Shown: one piece after another, positions 1,860 to 57,853 of the stretch | Layout of the letters: each line of letters starts with the position of its first letter | Numbering within the stretch: position 1 is the stretch's first letter | From: Nitrospirillum viridazoti CBAmc | Lineage (GTDB): Bacteria; Pseudomonadota; Alphaproteobacteria; Azospirillales; Azospirillaceae | Reading direction: 5' to 3' | NCBI RefSeq assembly: GCF_000730165.1 | Contig: NZ_CP022111.1 | Coordinates: 1,550,001 to 1,614,000, forward strand | Length of the DNA: 64,000 bases | Notes under the pieces: model-generated | The model's database searches: none | The model's input: only the letters and a program-made list of their open reading frames with translations | Told to the model about the DNA's origin: nothing | Translations under genes and position numbers: made by a program

Positions 1860-2924
1860 TCAGGGATGCCCCCCGGCGCCACCCGCGAGTGGCGCATCAT
1901 CGAAGCCCACCTTCTCGTTCACCAGGTACATCGGGCGGCCCTTCACCTCGGTGAAGACGCGGCCGAGATAGTCGCCCAGGACGCCCAGGCCGATGAGCTG
2001 TACGCCCCCCAGGAACAGGACCGCCACCATGAGCGAGGCGTAGCCGGGCGTGTCACGCCCGAACATGATGGTCTTGGTGATGATGACCAGGCCGTAGAAG
2101 AAGGAGGGCACCGACAGGGCGATACCCAGCCAGGACCAGACGCGCAGCGGCACGTTGCTGAAGGAGGCGACACCGTCCAGGCCGAAGCGCAACAGGCGCC
2201 AGAAGTTGAAGGAGGTGGCGCCGGCATGGCGCTGCGCCACCTCGAACGGCACGGCCACCTGGCGGAAGCCCACCCAGCTGAACAGGCCCTTCATGAAGCG
2301 GTTGCGCTCGGGCATGGCGTTCAGGGCGTCGACCACGCTGCGGTCCAGCAGGCGGAAGTCACCAGCGCCGCGCGGCAACGTCACCTCGGACAGATTGTCC
2401 AGCAGGCGGTAATAGATCTTGGTCAGGAAGCGGCGCAGCCACGGGTCGGTCAGCCGGCTGGCGCGCACGCCATAGACCATCTGCATGCCCTGGCGCCACT
2501 GCTCCACGAAAGTGGCGATGGTCTCGGGGGGGTGCTGCAAATCGCCGTCCATCAGCACGACGGCGTCGCCGACGGCGTGGCGCAGGCCGGCGGACATGGC
2601 CGCCTCCTTCCCGAAGTTGCGCGACAGGCGCAACAGCTTCAGCCGGGGTTCGAGCGCCTGGTGGCCCCTGAGGGCGGCGAAGGTGCCGTCGCGCGAGCCG
2701 TCGTCCACGCAAATGATCTCGAATGGCAGGCCGATGCCTTCCAGCACCGGGACCAGGCGCTGGAACAGGGCGGCCAGGTTGCCTTCCTCATTATGCATGG
2801 GGATGACGATGGACAGGCGCTTGGCCGCAGGTGCCGCCGCCTGCTGCGCTTTGGAACCGGACGCGGCCGAGAGGGAGGTCAACATGGGAGCGGTATCTGA
2901 CTCGGGTTCTGACAACGTGATCAT
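1860..2924 (-). CDS. GT2 polyprenyl-phosphate glycosyltransferase (DPM1/GtrB/ArnC type)
   Basis: Family 2 glycosyltransferase of 354 residues with a cytoplasmic catalytic domain and two C-terminal membrane helices. This is the layout of enzymes that load a nucleotide-activated sugar onto undecaprenyl phosphate. Visible motifs are LSIVIPMHNEEGN (from residue 37), the nucleotide-binding DDGS (74-77) and the metal-binding MDGDLQHP (125-132). The membrane helices lie at about 255-282 and 295-320. The first about 35 residues are low-complexity, so translation could begin at Met14. It is the first gene of a two-gene operon with the downstream GT-C enzyme. The inferred division of labour is that this protein makes the lipid-linked sugar and the partner transfers it to lipid A, polysaccharide or protein. 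Confidence 0.87.
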   Translation of the reverse strand: MITLSEPESDTAPMLTSLSAASGSKAQQAAAPAAKRLSIVIPMHNEEGNLAALFQRLVPVLEGIGLPFEIICVDDGSRDGTFAALRGHQALEPRLKLLRLSRNFGKEAAMSAGLRHAVGDAVVLMDGDLQHPPETIATFVEQWRQGMQMVYGVRASRLTDPWLRRFLTKIYYRLLDNLSEVTLPRGAGDFRLLDRSVVDALNAMPERNRFMKGLFSWVGFRQVAVPFEVAQRHAGATSFNFWRLLRFGLDGVASFSNVPLRVWSWLGIALSVPSFFYGLVIITKTIMFGRDTPGYASLMVAVLFLGGVQLIGLGVLGDYLGRVFTEVKGRPMYLVNEKVGFDDAPLAGGAGGHP

Positions 2925-3285
2925 GCAGCGGCGTCCGCCTCACGGAACTCTATCGCATCATCCGCGGCGATGCGGAAGGGTTCCGGACGCAAACGGCACC
3001 AAACGGCACCCCAAATAGCCAAGCCGCGGGTGCCCAAGGCGTTCCCCCGCGGCCCCAACCCTATCCCAGGAAGGTTAACGCCCAGTCTACAGTCACGCAG
3101 GGCGCCTCTCGAAGGCAGCGGAGTCGGAATCGGCGGGAACGGCAGGGTGCCGGCGGGGCACGGCAATGGCTTATGGCGGCTTATGGCACGCCCGAAGGGC
3201 AAAAATGTGACGACGCCCGAAAATCGTTATGCCCGGCATCCTTGTCAGGATGCGGTCAGCTTGGCGTGGCACTGTCCCCTTGTCG
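2925..3285. other. Intergenic region upstream of the glycosyltransferase operon
   Basis: No supported coding frame. The left part should hold the promoter of the minus-strand glycosyltransferase operon, but I could not pick a convincing -35/-10 pair. The right part leads into the structured RNA candidate on the plus strand; its promoter should lie here and was not identified with confidence. Confidence 0.4.
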
Positions 3286-3638
3286 CCAGCCGATGGAGAC
3301 GGCGACAGCCCCGGACGGGAGCCCCAACCCCCCGCCCGCGGCGCCGTCTCCTTGGCTGGTGGCACCGGCGCCCGCTCGTTCTAGACCGCGAGCGACTTCC
3401 CGTCCCTTCTGCCCCAACCGAGAGGGCGGGAACGGCGCCGGCAAGTACCCGGGCTGGGGTTCTAGACCACCCTGCCCGGCGGACGTTCCCCGTACCTGCG
3501 GAGATCGGGCCGGCGTCCTGGCCTGTCCGGTCGCGTAGTGGATCTACCTCAAGCCAAGGCGGTCTGCTGCCGTCCTGTCTTGAATTCCTTCCAAGCCTAC
3601 TGGGTCGGTGGTGCCATGCCACCGACCTTTTCTCTTTT
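3286..3638 (+). ncRNA. Candidate structured non-coding RNA, unknown family
   Basis: The plus strand folds into successive strong hairpins. CCAGCC 3286-3291 pairs with 3354-3359, and GGAGACGGCG 3295-3304 with 3342-3351, giving a 16-bp stem with a small internal loop. CCGGCGCC 3365-3372 pairs with GGCGCCGG 3434-3441 and encloses two hairpins: CGCTCG/CGAGCG (3373-3378 with 3389-3394) and a 10-bp stem with one bulge (3397-3407 with 3423-3432). CCGGGC 3449-3454 pairs with 3474-3479 and extends inward through GGGT/ACCC. Smaller stems follow near 3481-3518 and 3535-3547. A perfect terminator closes the region at 3603-3638. I found no tmRNA tag, RNase P signature, SRP domain or tRNA-like end. The 5' end and promoter are unknown. 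A regulatory or housekeeping RNA is inferred, not shown. Confidence 0.5.
3603..3638 (+). terminator. Rho-independent terminator of the structured RNA candidate
   Basis: A perfect 9-bp stem (GGTCGGTGG 3603-3611 with CCACCGACC 3619-3627) and a 7-nt loop are followed by TTTTCTCTTTT (3628-3638). The T-rich tail is only on the plus strand, so it ends a plus-strand transcript although no plus-strand protein gene precedes it. The next gene to the right converges on it. Confidence 0.8.
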
Positions 3639-3704
3639 GGCCGCCCGGCACCGTCGGCGACAGTGCTTATACGCCGCCCCCGGGCCAACCCGTCGTCGCT
3701 TCGG

Positions 3705-4469
3705 TCATCTGTGTTCCGGGGTAAAGCCCAGGCGTCGGAAAGTGGCGGCCAGATGCGGGGACAACGGCGCCGTGGCCTCCAGCGGCGGCTCGGACGGGGC
3801 CCACCACGGCAAGGCCACCCAGCGGGCGTGCAGGTGCAGCGGGATGGCCGGCGCCGGGTCGCGGCCGCCTTCCACCCGCCAGTCACGGCCATAGATGGGA
3901 TCGCCCAGCATGGGCCAGCCCATGGCCTCGCAATGCACCCGCAGCTGGTGCATACGACCCGTGCGCGGCGTCAGCTCCAGCCATGACAGGACCTGCCCGT
4001 CCGAATCGGTACCGGTGGCCATGAGCCGCCATTCGGTCAGGGCGTGCTTGCCCTCCTCATGATCCACCATCATGCGGGAACATCCCGGCACCGGACGCTT
4101 GATCAGCGGCAGCTCGATACGCCCCTCGGCCGTCTCCGGCCGGCCCTTGACCACCGCCCAGTAGCGCTTGCCCACCCGGCCCGCCAGGAACAGCTTTCCC
4201 AGGCGGGTGGACGCCATCTCGTTCAGGCCCAGCACCAGGCAGCCGGTGGTGTCCTTGTCCAGGCGGTGGGCCAGGCGCGGCGGCGGCGCGCCCTCGGCTA
4301 CCAGCCAGGGCAGATAGCGTTCCAGATGGTCGGTGGACTTGGTGCCGTAATGCACCGGCAGGCCGTAGGGCTTGTCCACGACCAGGACGTCGGCGTCCTG
4401 GTACAAGACGCGGGCGCGCATCTCGTCAGGCGTGTAGGCGGGCGGCGCCAGGGGGAGCATGATGGCCAT
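3705..4469 (-). CDS. RluA-family RNA pseudouridine synthase
   Basis: Pseudouridine synthase of the RluA/RsuA superfamily, which isomerises uridine in rRNA or tRNA. The hallmark catalytic motif HRLDKDTTG is present, with the catalytic Asp at about residue 71 of the 254-residue form chosen here. The RluA-type C-terminal signature GRMHQLRVHCEAMGWPMLGD is also present. There is no N-terminal S4 domain, as in the RluA/RluC-type short members. The start is placed at Met of MAIMLP; a Met three codons later is equally possible and neither has a clear ribosome binding site. Which RNA site it modifies cannot be told. It is a single gene converging on the RNA candidate to its left. Confidence 0.88.
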   Translation of the reverse strand: MAIMLPLAPPAYTPDEMRARVLYQDADVLVVDKPYGLPVHYGTKSTDHLERYLPWLVAEGAPPPRLAHRLDKDTTGCLVLGLNEMASTRLGKLFLAGRVGKRYWAVVKGRPETAEGRIELPLIKRPVPGCSRMMVDHEEGKHALTEWRLMATGTDSDGQVLSWLELTPRTGRMHQLRVHCEAMGWPMLGDPIYGRDWRVEGGRDPAPAIPLHLHARWVALPWWAPSEPPLEATAPLSPHLAATFRRLGFTPEHR

Positions 4470-4694
4470 GGGCAGACGGCGTGCCCCGGCGGGGCATCCT
4501 CGGCAAGTCAAAAGGAAGAGGCGTTCCTATCGCTTTAGGCCCGCCGCCGCATGAAAAAAACTTAATCCTGCTGCCACGGGCTGGAAAGTCTGTCCCGACC
4601 ATGATCATCCTCGTTGCGGCGGGCGATGATCGCCCCATGTTAGTTGGGCCGCCGTGTTAAGACGGTAACAAAGGAAAGCAGTCGAGGAACCATC

Positions 4695-33082: not shown

Positions 33083-33089
33083 CCGCCCT

Positions 33090-33268
33090 CGTAAACACAA
33101 GGGCATAAAAAAGACCGCGCTCGCGATAGCGCGGCGCGGCCTTGAGTTTAGGGAGGAATCGCCACCAAGCGACTCAATGTCAGAGGGGGATGTACCCTCC
33201 AACGCTTGGATAATGCTACGCCGAGTTTTCGAAAGGCAAGCCCTAACCGAGGGCTGGCCTTTCTTTTT
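33090..33268 (+). ncRNA. Candidate small RNA with possible pseudoknot, unknown family
   Basis: About 180 nt between a good promoter and a strong terminator, with no convincing protein frame. Hairpin 1 is CCGCGCT/AGCGCGG (33115-33121 with 33128-33134). CCAAGCG 33165-33171 pairs with CGCTTGG 33203-33209 and encloses hairpin GAGGG/CCCTC (33183-33187 with 33195-33199). TTGAGT 33142-33147 can pair with ACTCAA 33172-33177, which with the previous stem forms an H-type pseudoknot. The purine-rich AGGGAGGA (33150-33157) lies in the pseudoknot loop and could contact ribosomes or mRNA. It does not match 6S, tmRNA, SRP RNA or a SAM-II riboswitch as far as I can judge. A short frame from 33178 runs through the terminator and is unlikely to be real. 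Confidence 0.55.
33235..33268 (+). terminator. Rho-independent terminator of the small RNA candidate
   Basis: GGC-A-AGCCCT (33235-33244) pairs with AGGGCT-G-GCC (33250-33259): 9 bp with one A/G mismatch and a 5-nt loop. TTTCTTTTT follows. A second T-rich run lies just downstream. Confidence 0.75.
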
Positions 33269-57148: not shown

Positions 57149-57304
57149 GTGTTGGAATATAGGCGGGTGCCGTGCCCAAGGAAAGCAAATTACGCCATGC
57201 GTCCCGCAGGGGCCAAGGCGCTGAAAATATGGGGGAAATGTCCGGAAACGAAGTTGTTGAGAGCCACTCTCAACCGCCACTCTACCGCAGGTGCGAGAGC
57301 CCGG

Positions 57305-57339
57305 AAAGCAAGCAGGCCGCGCTGTTGCCAGCGCGGCCT
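57305..57339 (-). terminator. Terminator after tRNA-Asp
   Basis: On the minus strand an 11-bp stem AGGCCGCGCTG/CAGCGCGGCCT (57339-57329 with 57324-57314) and a 4-nt loop are followed by GCTTGCTTT. It lies 39 nt after the tRNA 3' end. Confidence 0.65.
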
Positions 57340-57377
57340 TGCTAATGCATCGAACCTTCTGTCTAGGCTCGATGAAG

Positions 57378-57454
<77 letters not shown>

Positions 57455-57628
57455 GTCGTTCGCAACTTGCTTTCAGGCCTTATTTCGCACCGTTCGTTTA
57501 TCGTTCGGTGCGTTTCGCGCCGTCAGCGTCGCTGCGGTGCGCGGTTTGTAGTAAAAAGCCCCACCCCTTGTCAAACAAGAAAAACGCGGCGGCGACGATT
57601 TTTTTTACTTTTTTCTAAACTATTGATA

Positions 57629-57853
57629 TCACGCGACTTTCTGGGCGCGGCGCAGGTTGTCCAACCGGTCAAGCGCGTCCAGCAGGCGCATCGGCACGCC
57701 GCGGTGGTCCACGGCATCGGGCCCGCCGAAGGCCGTCATGCTCAGTTCCAGGGCCTGGGCCAGCGGCTCCGCCACCGTAAGGTTGCCCTGCTCCACCGCC
57801 AGTTCCAGCGCGCTCAGAATCCGATCGCCCAGGCGGCGCTCATCACTCTCCAT
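57629..57853 (-). CDS. Small helical protein, unknown
   Basis: 74-residue acidic helical protein (MESDERRLGDRILSALELAV and LLDALDRLDNLRRAQ). No signal peptide or membrane segment. I do not recognise it. The codon pattern and an internal frame free of stops suggest it is real. It is flanked by T-rich DNA on its 3' side. Confidence 0.6.
   Translation of the reverse strand: MESDERRLGDRILSALELAVEQGNLTVAEPLAQALELSMTAFGGPDAVDHRGVPMRLLDALDRLDNLRRAQKVA

Follow-up and report, generated by a model that had tools for sequence, protein, structure and literature searches.

The 64,000-nucleotide stretch of Nitrospirillum viridazoti CBAmc DNA analysed here (the window) very probably contains a functional noncoding RNA gene, as judged from sequence analysis. 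The predicted structured RNA lies on the plus strand, and its folded unit, recognised by folds, conservation and compensatory changes, extends from ∼3281 to ∼3636 with an approximate 5′ end, a small adjustment of the 3286..3638 given in the initial annotation. It would represent an independent noncoding RNA gene of ∼350 nt specific to Nitrospirillum, a genus of plant-associated nitrogen fixers. The initial annotation proposed a large structured RNA of unknown family that ends in a terminator and has the position and size of a housekeeping or regulatory RNA. Its structural part is confirmed by an island of conservation, good folds in seven sequences, compensatory changes and a plus-strand terminator, and the family is new to Rfam. 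A housekeeping role is unsupported, because the RNA was found only in Nitrospirillum and the 6S RNA of the genome is located elsewhere. We know of few large, strongly folded bacterial RNAs beyond the housekeeping set, and the present one is under clear structural constraint, without an Rfam match, in a nitrogen-fixing genus.

The distribution of the RNA is narrow. A blastn search of 59 whole genomes with positions 3180-3720 was positive in seven (its own and six others), all of one genus; 28 same-family and 24 same-class genomes from other genera gave no match. From the seven loci a covariance model of the full RNA (R1) was built, which recovered the same seven of 82 family genomes at 336–416 bits, with one match per genome at E values up to 1. 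Every one of the seven Nitrospirillum genomes searched has a single copy of the RNA. The hoped-for conservation across Azospirillaceae is not there: R1 matched none of the 75 other family genomes, under the stricter Infernal filters that apply above 40 genomes and lose weak matches. The order-level search covered the same 82 genomes, and a 19-letter word with two mismatches was again found in seven of them, all Nitrospirillum. In a collection of 84,980 species with one genome per species, a pattern of 22 fixed letters from hairpin H3 matched five contigs, from Nitrospirillum amazonense BR 11622, BR 12005 and BR 11880, N. iridis DSM 22198 and a record labelled Azospirillum sp. B4; this exact pattern is blind to diverged relatives, and the collection may omit records near the window's own. 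Plasmid and phage collections contained no match to the RNA. Genomic position is no guide for a homolog search in other genera, since 11 same-family genomes from other genera have both neighbouring genes and in none of them are the best matches adjacent, most having the two on different contigs.

Two domain models, R2 and R3, were run on a selection of 30 genomes. Among the 28 from outside the genus, the best E value of R2 was 0.22. R3 matched genomes G017 (E 0.0024), G021 (0.0028) and G014 (0.019), and a second place in the N. viridazoti genome (G000; 0.005). The matches in G014 and G000 were rejected because their alignments depend largely on a similar terminator, and the one in G021 because it is without the seed and without a U-tailed terminator. 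The match in G017, which belongs to another genus of the same family, is in a TTGACA-bearing intergenic stretch (L118 ∼1455-1631, G017:C1 near 620350), scores 31.5 bits and consists of a similar hairpin followed by CCTTCCGAACCT. Its vicinity contains no TCTAGACC or GCCCCAACC beyond GCCCCATCC, with one mismatch allowed, and the matched stretch has no U-tailed terminator; it is possibly a remote relative of the 3′ part of the RNA, or another sRNA.

The seven Nitrospirillum loci were aligned with the window as reference, and the RNA stands out as a conserved island with identity falling off on both sides. The six homologs are identical to the window at 99, 99, 90, 87, 88 and 82% of positions over the RNA (3281-3636) and 98, 95, 90, 90, 92 and 85% over the 84 bases 5′ of it, as compared to 82, 94, 44, 45, 42 and 38% in the upstream spacer (3080-3196) and 83, 88, 53, 74, 46 and 55% in the downstream spacer (3640-3704). 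These seven sequences represent a single genus and three are nearly identical; identities at the end of the downstream RluA-type gene were left out, being lowered by the cut ends of the aligned pieces. No reading frame on either strand is open over the whole 374-base stretch in all seven genomes. One plus-strand frame is open in four of the seven and at least one minus-strand frame in four, while stops occur in every frame of the plus strand in three genomes and of the minus strand in three; the test concerns frames across the full length and leaves room for a short internal ORF. Plus-strand ORFs crossing the RNA are not preserved along its length in the other genomes.

Positions 3270-3640 fold with a minimum free energy of −194.7 kcal/mol (z −5.28), and none of 100 shuffles was equally low. 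Tiling of the plus strand of the window (199 tiles of 352 bases, 16 shuffles per tile) gave a mean z of −0.8 (sd 1.3) and placed the lowest value, −5.3, in the tile from 3201. The tile starting at 3281, the RNA itself, has a z of −5.0, equal to that of tile 32961, which contains an alpha-r8 sRNA, and slightly behind tile 57281-57632 (−5.2). The latter tile is the second lowest of the 199 and contains a tRNA-Asp gene on the minus strand, so that part of its plus-strand signal may have another source. When folded singly, the seven sequences reach z scores of −4.3 to −8.0 (60 shuffles each), with 68 pairs common to all seven folds and 82 present in six or more (alignment coordinates).

A structure of 94 pairs from the window's fold is paired in 98.2% of 658 alignment cells, a figure that favours this structure because it is drawn from one of the seven sequences. 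Both sides have changed at six pairs and in eight cells, against shuffled means of 1.8 and 2.1; the shuffles, which ignore relatedness, equalled these counts in 2/500 (pairs) and 0/500 (cells), and sliding the partners left 0–2 such pairs. Thirty of the 42 changed cells still pair and 12 do not, whereas a random single change would preserve pairing in 34%. Seventy of the 94 pairs are invariant across the seven sequences, and RNAalifold returned 115 pairs, of which seven have changed on both sides, with a covariation term that is small (−1.29). The check on relatives suggested by the initial annotation has thus yielded conservation and some covariation.

The fold starts with hairpin H1 (3281..3364), composed of 12-bp, 9-bp and apical stems, whose core pairs occur in all seven independent folds. 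The longest stem, earlier described as 16 bp with one internal loop, is in fact 12 + 9 bp around one bulged base. H1 is 87–100% identical in the six homologs, with both-side changes at two pairs and three unpaired cells at two other pairs, and its apical loop A1 (3322-3329, CCCCAACC) has an unpaired probability of 0.97. An 8-bp stem (3365-3372 with 3434-3441), paired in 100% of cells and varying at one of its eight pairs, closes the branch 3365..3441 that holds hairpins H2a and H2b. H2a (3373..3394) presents loop B1 (3380-3387, UCUAGACC; CCUAGACC in homolog L002) on three different stem sequences among the seven genomes, CGCTCGT/GCGAGCG in four, CCGCTT/AAGCGG in two and CCGCTT/GAGCGG in one; it is gapped in the alignment and was therefore left out of the pair counts. 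H2b (3397..3432), with loop A2 (3412-3419, CCCCAACC), is paired in 100% of cells and has three pairs with both-side changes. Hairpin H3 (3449..3479) is 97–100% identical in the six homologs, has two unpaired cells and carries loop B2 (3461-3468, UCUAGACC). The most variable element is H4 (3496..3538), with 92.9% of cells paired in its base, 94.8% in its body and one both-side change, and H5 (3550..3582) is paired in 98.8% of cells. A mostly single-stranded stretch (3583..3601) follows, with the candidate seed AUUCCUUCC located where alpha-r8 sRNAs have theirs; within it GAATTCCTTCCAA is identical in all seven genomes and ATTCCTTCC has a mean unpaired probability of 0.67–0.78.

The RNA ends in an intrinsic terminator with a U-rich tail (3602..3639), detected by a terminator scan. 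The plus-strand terminator with a T-rich tail was correctly noted before, and the stem assigned 9 bp is 11–12 bp long (3602-3628) and followed by TTTTCTCTTTT. Its 11 pairs are standard in all alignment cells (100% paired), and the helix is present in five of the seven best folds, since in those of the window and of homolog L003 part of the terminator is paired with sequence 5′ of the RNA.

Two loop words thus alternate from 5′ to 3′, CCCCAACC (3322), UCUAGACC (3380), CCCCAACC (3412) and UCUAGACC (3461), and mean unpaired probabilities of the four loops are 0.88–1.0 in the window. In the seven genomes taken together, all 14 A-type loops read CCCCAACC (unpaired probability 0.89–0.97) and 13 of the 14 B-type loops read UCUAGACC, L002 being the exception; loop probabilities overall are 0.80–1.0. 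The repetition of words is in itself within chance, with two repeats of at least nine letters in 51 of 500 same-composition shuffles. UCUAGA is its own reverse complement, and loops B1 and B2 can therefore pair with each other over six bases; the CCUAGACC variant costs one kissing pair. We infer an internal kissing contact, the alternative being dimerisation of two RNAs. Within the 7.38-Mb genome, UCUAGACC or its complement occurs at 12 places, including two in the RNA (222 for the pattern written backwards); it occurs at 8, 10 and 11 places in three other genomes, two of each inside the RNA. This rarity leaves few perfect pairing sites elsewhere and favours an internal role, and the rare palindromic loops make for a folding hypothesis that is both simple and testable. 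We discarded a resemblance between GGTTCTAGACC and a tRNA T-arm, as the H2a stem does not permit a 7-base loop.

Tentatively, and with somewhat less than even confidence, we read the whole as a genus-specific sRNA acting in trans by base pairing at several sites, and held together by a kissing clamp. It would be expressed from its own conserved control region and end at its own terminator. A rigid scaffold, clamped by the kissing of the two palindromic UCUAGA loops, would expose the two C-rich CCCCAACC loops and the 3′ CU-rich strand AUUCCUUCC, and these could base-pair with mRNAs at G-rich leaders or at ribosome-binding sites. Hfq would perhaps bind at the U-rich end, the U-rich tail being the sole feature that suggests it.

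A motif search for mRNA targets gave no defensible candidate. GGTTGGGGC, which is complementary to the C-rich loop, shows no enrichment (148 genome places, against 210 for the backward control). When GGTCTAGA sites of four Nitrospirillum genomes were compared, two intergenic sites were orthologous among them, and neither is good evidence for pairing with the RNA. One site (L155 ∼1475-1510, G000:C1 near 2401048) is a promoter-like TTGACA-N17-TAGATA sequence overlapping GGTCTAGATA, kept in 4/4 genomes ahead of a gene read by eye from its translation as ffh; promoter constraint explains its conservation. The other (L151 ∼1490-1520, G000:C1 near 2328453) is a conserved GGTCTAGATGCGGAACA, present in three of the four genomes compared, between genes read by eye from their translations as rsmE and ubiA.

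The same loops could instead be protein sites, two of each kind, on an RNA that titrates or organises a protein. The alternation of two pairs of identical conserved loops on a rigid scaffold would suit a protein-binding or sequestering RNA, and with so few genomic occurrences UCUAGACC could not serve many mRNA targets. Such an RNA has no known partner here, each kind of loop is present in only two copies, and the 3′ CU-rich strand ahead of the terminator resembles a pairing seed; we regard this explanation as somewhat unlikely.

The 3′ end bears on the relation to known families. None of 4227 Rfam families reached its gathering score here, which upholds the earlier failure to match the RNA to RNase P RNA, tmRNA, SRP RNA, 6S RNA or a riboswitch. 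ARAGORN found no tmRNA in the window, and 6S RNA (RF00013) has no match at the locus, the genome's own copy being at G000:C1:2077456-2077615. The miRNA model mir-4928 also matched the minus strand of H1, scoring 20.6 bits for the window and 30.3 bits for homolog L087 (cut-off 100), which was read as a long-hairpin artefact. The best permissive match is RF00519 (suhB/mmgR), whose 24.0 bits fall short of the cut-off of 41 (E value 0.015 over 801 bases), with 23.6 bits for L087. Weak suhB matches are nonspecific, as 8 of 14 control genomes also match, one of them above the cut-off. Membership of RF00519 (suhB/alpha-r8, MmgR) was rejected, since the score is below gathering and the conserved core UUUCCUCCCU is absent; the core position carries AUUCCUUCCAA in all seven genomes, where genuine alpha-r8 siblings have UUCCUCCC. 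The alpha-r8 arrangement of a core position followed by a rho-independent terminator is found in the RNA, and the conserved folded unit is ∼350 nt long, as compared to ∼77 nt for the short alpha-r8 transcript.

The N. viridazoti genome itself has seven RF00519 matches at E values up to 0.1. Its alpha-r8 sRNAs include one with 55.5 bits and a further sibling with 27.0 bits and UUUCCUCCC. Within the window, the minus strand of 33085-33230 contains an alpha-r8-type sRNA with AUUCCUCCCUAAACUC, a terminator and a fold z of −4.94, and all seven genomes of the genus have matches of this type at 30.3–30.8 bits. The sRNA itself (33100-33196, minus strand) scores 30.5 bits against the cut-off of 41 and carries AUUCCUCCCUAAACU; the seed stretch of the RNA has 11 of 15 letters in common with it.

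The existence in this genome of real alpha-r8 siblings below the cut-off, together with the RF00519 scores of the window and L087, raises the question of whether the RNA is a lengthened relative of alpha-r8 whose activity resides in the 3′ module alone (H5, AUUCCUUCC and terminator), with a 5′ domain that provides stability or processing. This is unlikely in our judgement, as the 5′ domain is conserved like the 3′ part (see H1 and H3 above) and the seed is unlike that of alpha-r8.

The locus lies in a 780-base gap between two minus-strand genes, a location that would also suit a leader, untranslated end or operon spacer of those genes. The RNA is flanked by a divergent family-2 glycosyltransferase gene (1860-2924) and a convergent RluA-type pseudouridine synthase gene (3705-4511), which settles the earlier description of the neighbours as "divergent or convergent"; as that description also held, no protein gene precedes the terminator on the plus strand within the window, both genes to its left being on the minus strand. 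A cis-acting element is very unlikely, because the terminator stem has no T-run behind it when read on the minus strand (the scan output comprised plus-strand terminators only), the interval from the terminator to the convergent gene contains no gene on the plus strand, and a separate conserved block is present on the plus-strand 5′ side. This block (3197..3280), 85–98% identical in the six homologs, is probably the control region and promoter of the RNA, and the spacer before it drops to 38–45% identity in four of the six. A scan of 2900-3750 found no sigma-70-like promoter, and sigma-54, RpoH and EcfG readings, made by eye only, did not fit. A direct repeat, TGTCAG / GGTCAG, 11 bases apart (3244-3259), was also noted by eye and is possibly a regulator site; a PhoB-type reading of the region was made in the same way, and the repeat is best taken as a lead.

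CrfA is reported to sponge the alpha-r8 sRNAs SisA-D in Caulobacter (PMC12559287) and is, like the present RNA, a noncoding RNA of an alphaproteobacterium whose genome has several alpha-r8 siblings. A comparable sponge is highly improbable here: unlike in CrfA, complementarity of the RNA to the alpha-r8 core is within chance, the longest complement being six bases, which 184 of 200 shuffles reach or pass. Duplex energies to three alpha-r8 siblings were borderline in one case (5% of shuffles as low) and unremarkable in the others (27% and 90%). Least probable of all is the absence of a functional RNA, with the signal due to DNA constraint or to GC-rich DNA that folds stably by chance, for although GC-rich sequence folds well everywhere and several tiles have equal or lower energy, the z-score corrects for composition, the changes preserve G-U and compensated pairs, and the H2a stems have been replaced with the loop kept.

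We take the RNA as a new family that belongs to a known kind. We could match its architecture to none described, and beyond the genus the searched collections yielded no convincing homolog. It is conceivable, though rather doubtful, that the architecture itself is new: a UCUAGA-kissing scaffold showing two C-rich loops and joined to an alpha-r8-like 3′ seed module, that is, a ribonucleoprotein-like core with an sRNA tail in one genus. Large, strongly folded RNA presenting several C-rich loops is also seen in staphylococcal RNAIII, of another phylum; to our knowledge such RNAs have no sequence relation to the present one, and the UCUAGACC loop pair has no counterpart. No paper naming both Nitrospirillum and sRNA was found in the literature searched, where the genus occurs together with non-coding RNA in one review and with RNA-seq in five papers. 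An sRNA survey exists for A. brasilense (PMC7685610).

Closer parallels come from the alphaproteobacteria. GsrN, a Caulobacter stress sRNA, uses a C-rich 5′ loop to pair with G-rich leaders, and both RNAs have an exposed conserved C-rich loop and a second exposed region in the 3′ part; GsrN was found in one family by blastn, the present RNA in one genus (PMC5869019). The RNA is much larger, with two C-rich loops and two UCUAGACC loops, and Rfam and blast showed no sequence relation; no EcfG-like motif, which would indicate GsrN-type control, was seen by eye at the locus. AbcR1 and AbcR2 (alpha-r15) act in trans through CU-rich anti-Shine-Dalgarno motifs in unpaired regions, to which the CU-rich unpaired strand is similar; they are 114–120 nt long with three stem-loops and have no Rfam sequence match here (PMC7143759). 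The alpha-r8 sRNAs (RF00519; MmgR of Sinorhizobium, SisA-D of Caulobacter) come from the same class of bacteria as the host and have the same 3′ layout of hairpin, CU-rich single strand and terminator, whereas the RNA has the seed AUUCCUUCCAAGCCU in place of UUUCCUCCCU and a large 5′ domain with four hairpin loops. The CU-rich motif of MmgR is a precedent for pairing by the 3′ strand. By analogy, the alpha-r8 layout of the 3′ end, the open loops and the precedents of GsrN, AbcR and MmgR argue for a pairing sRNA.
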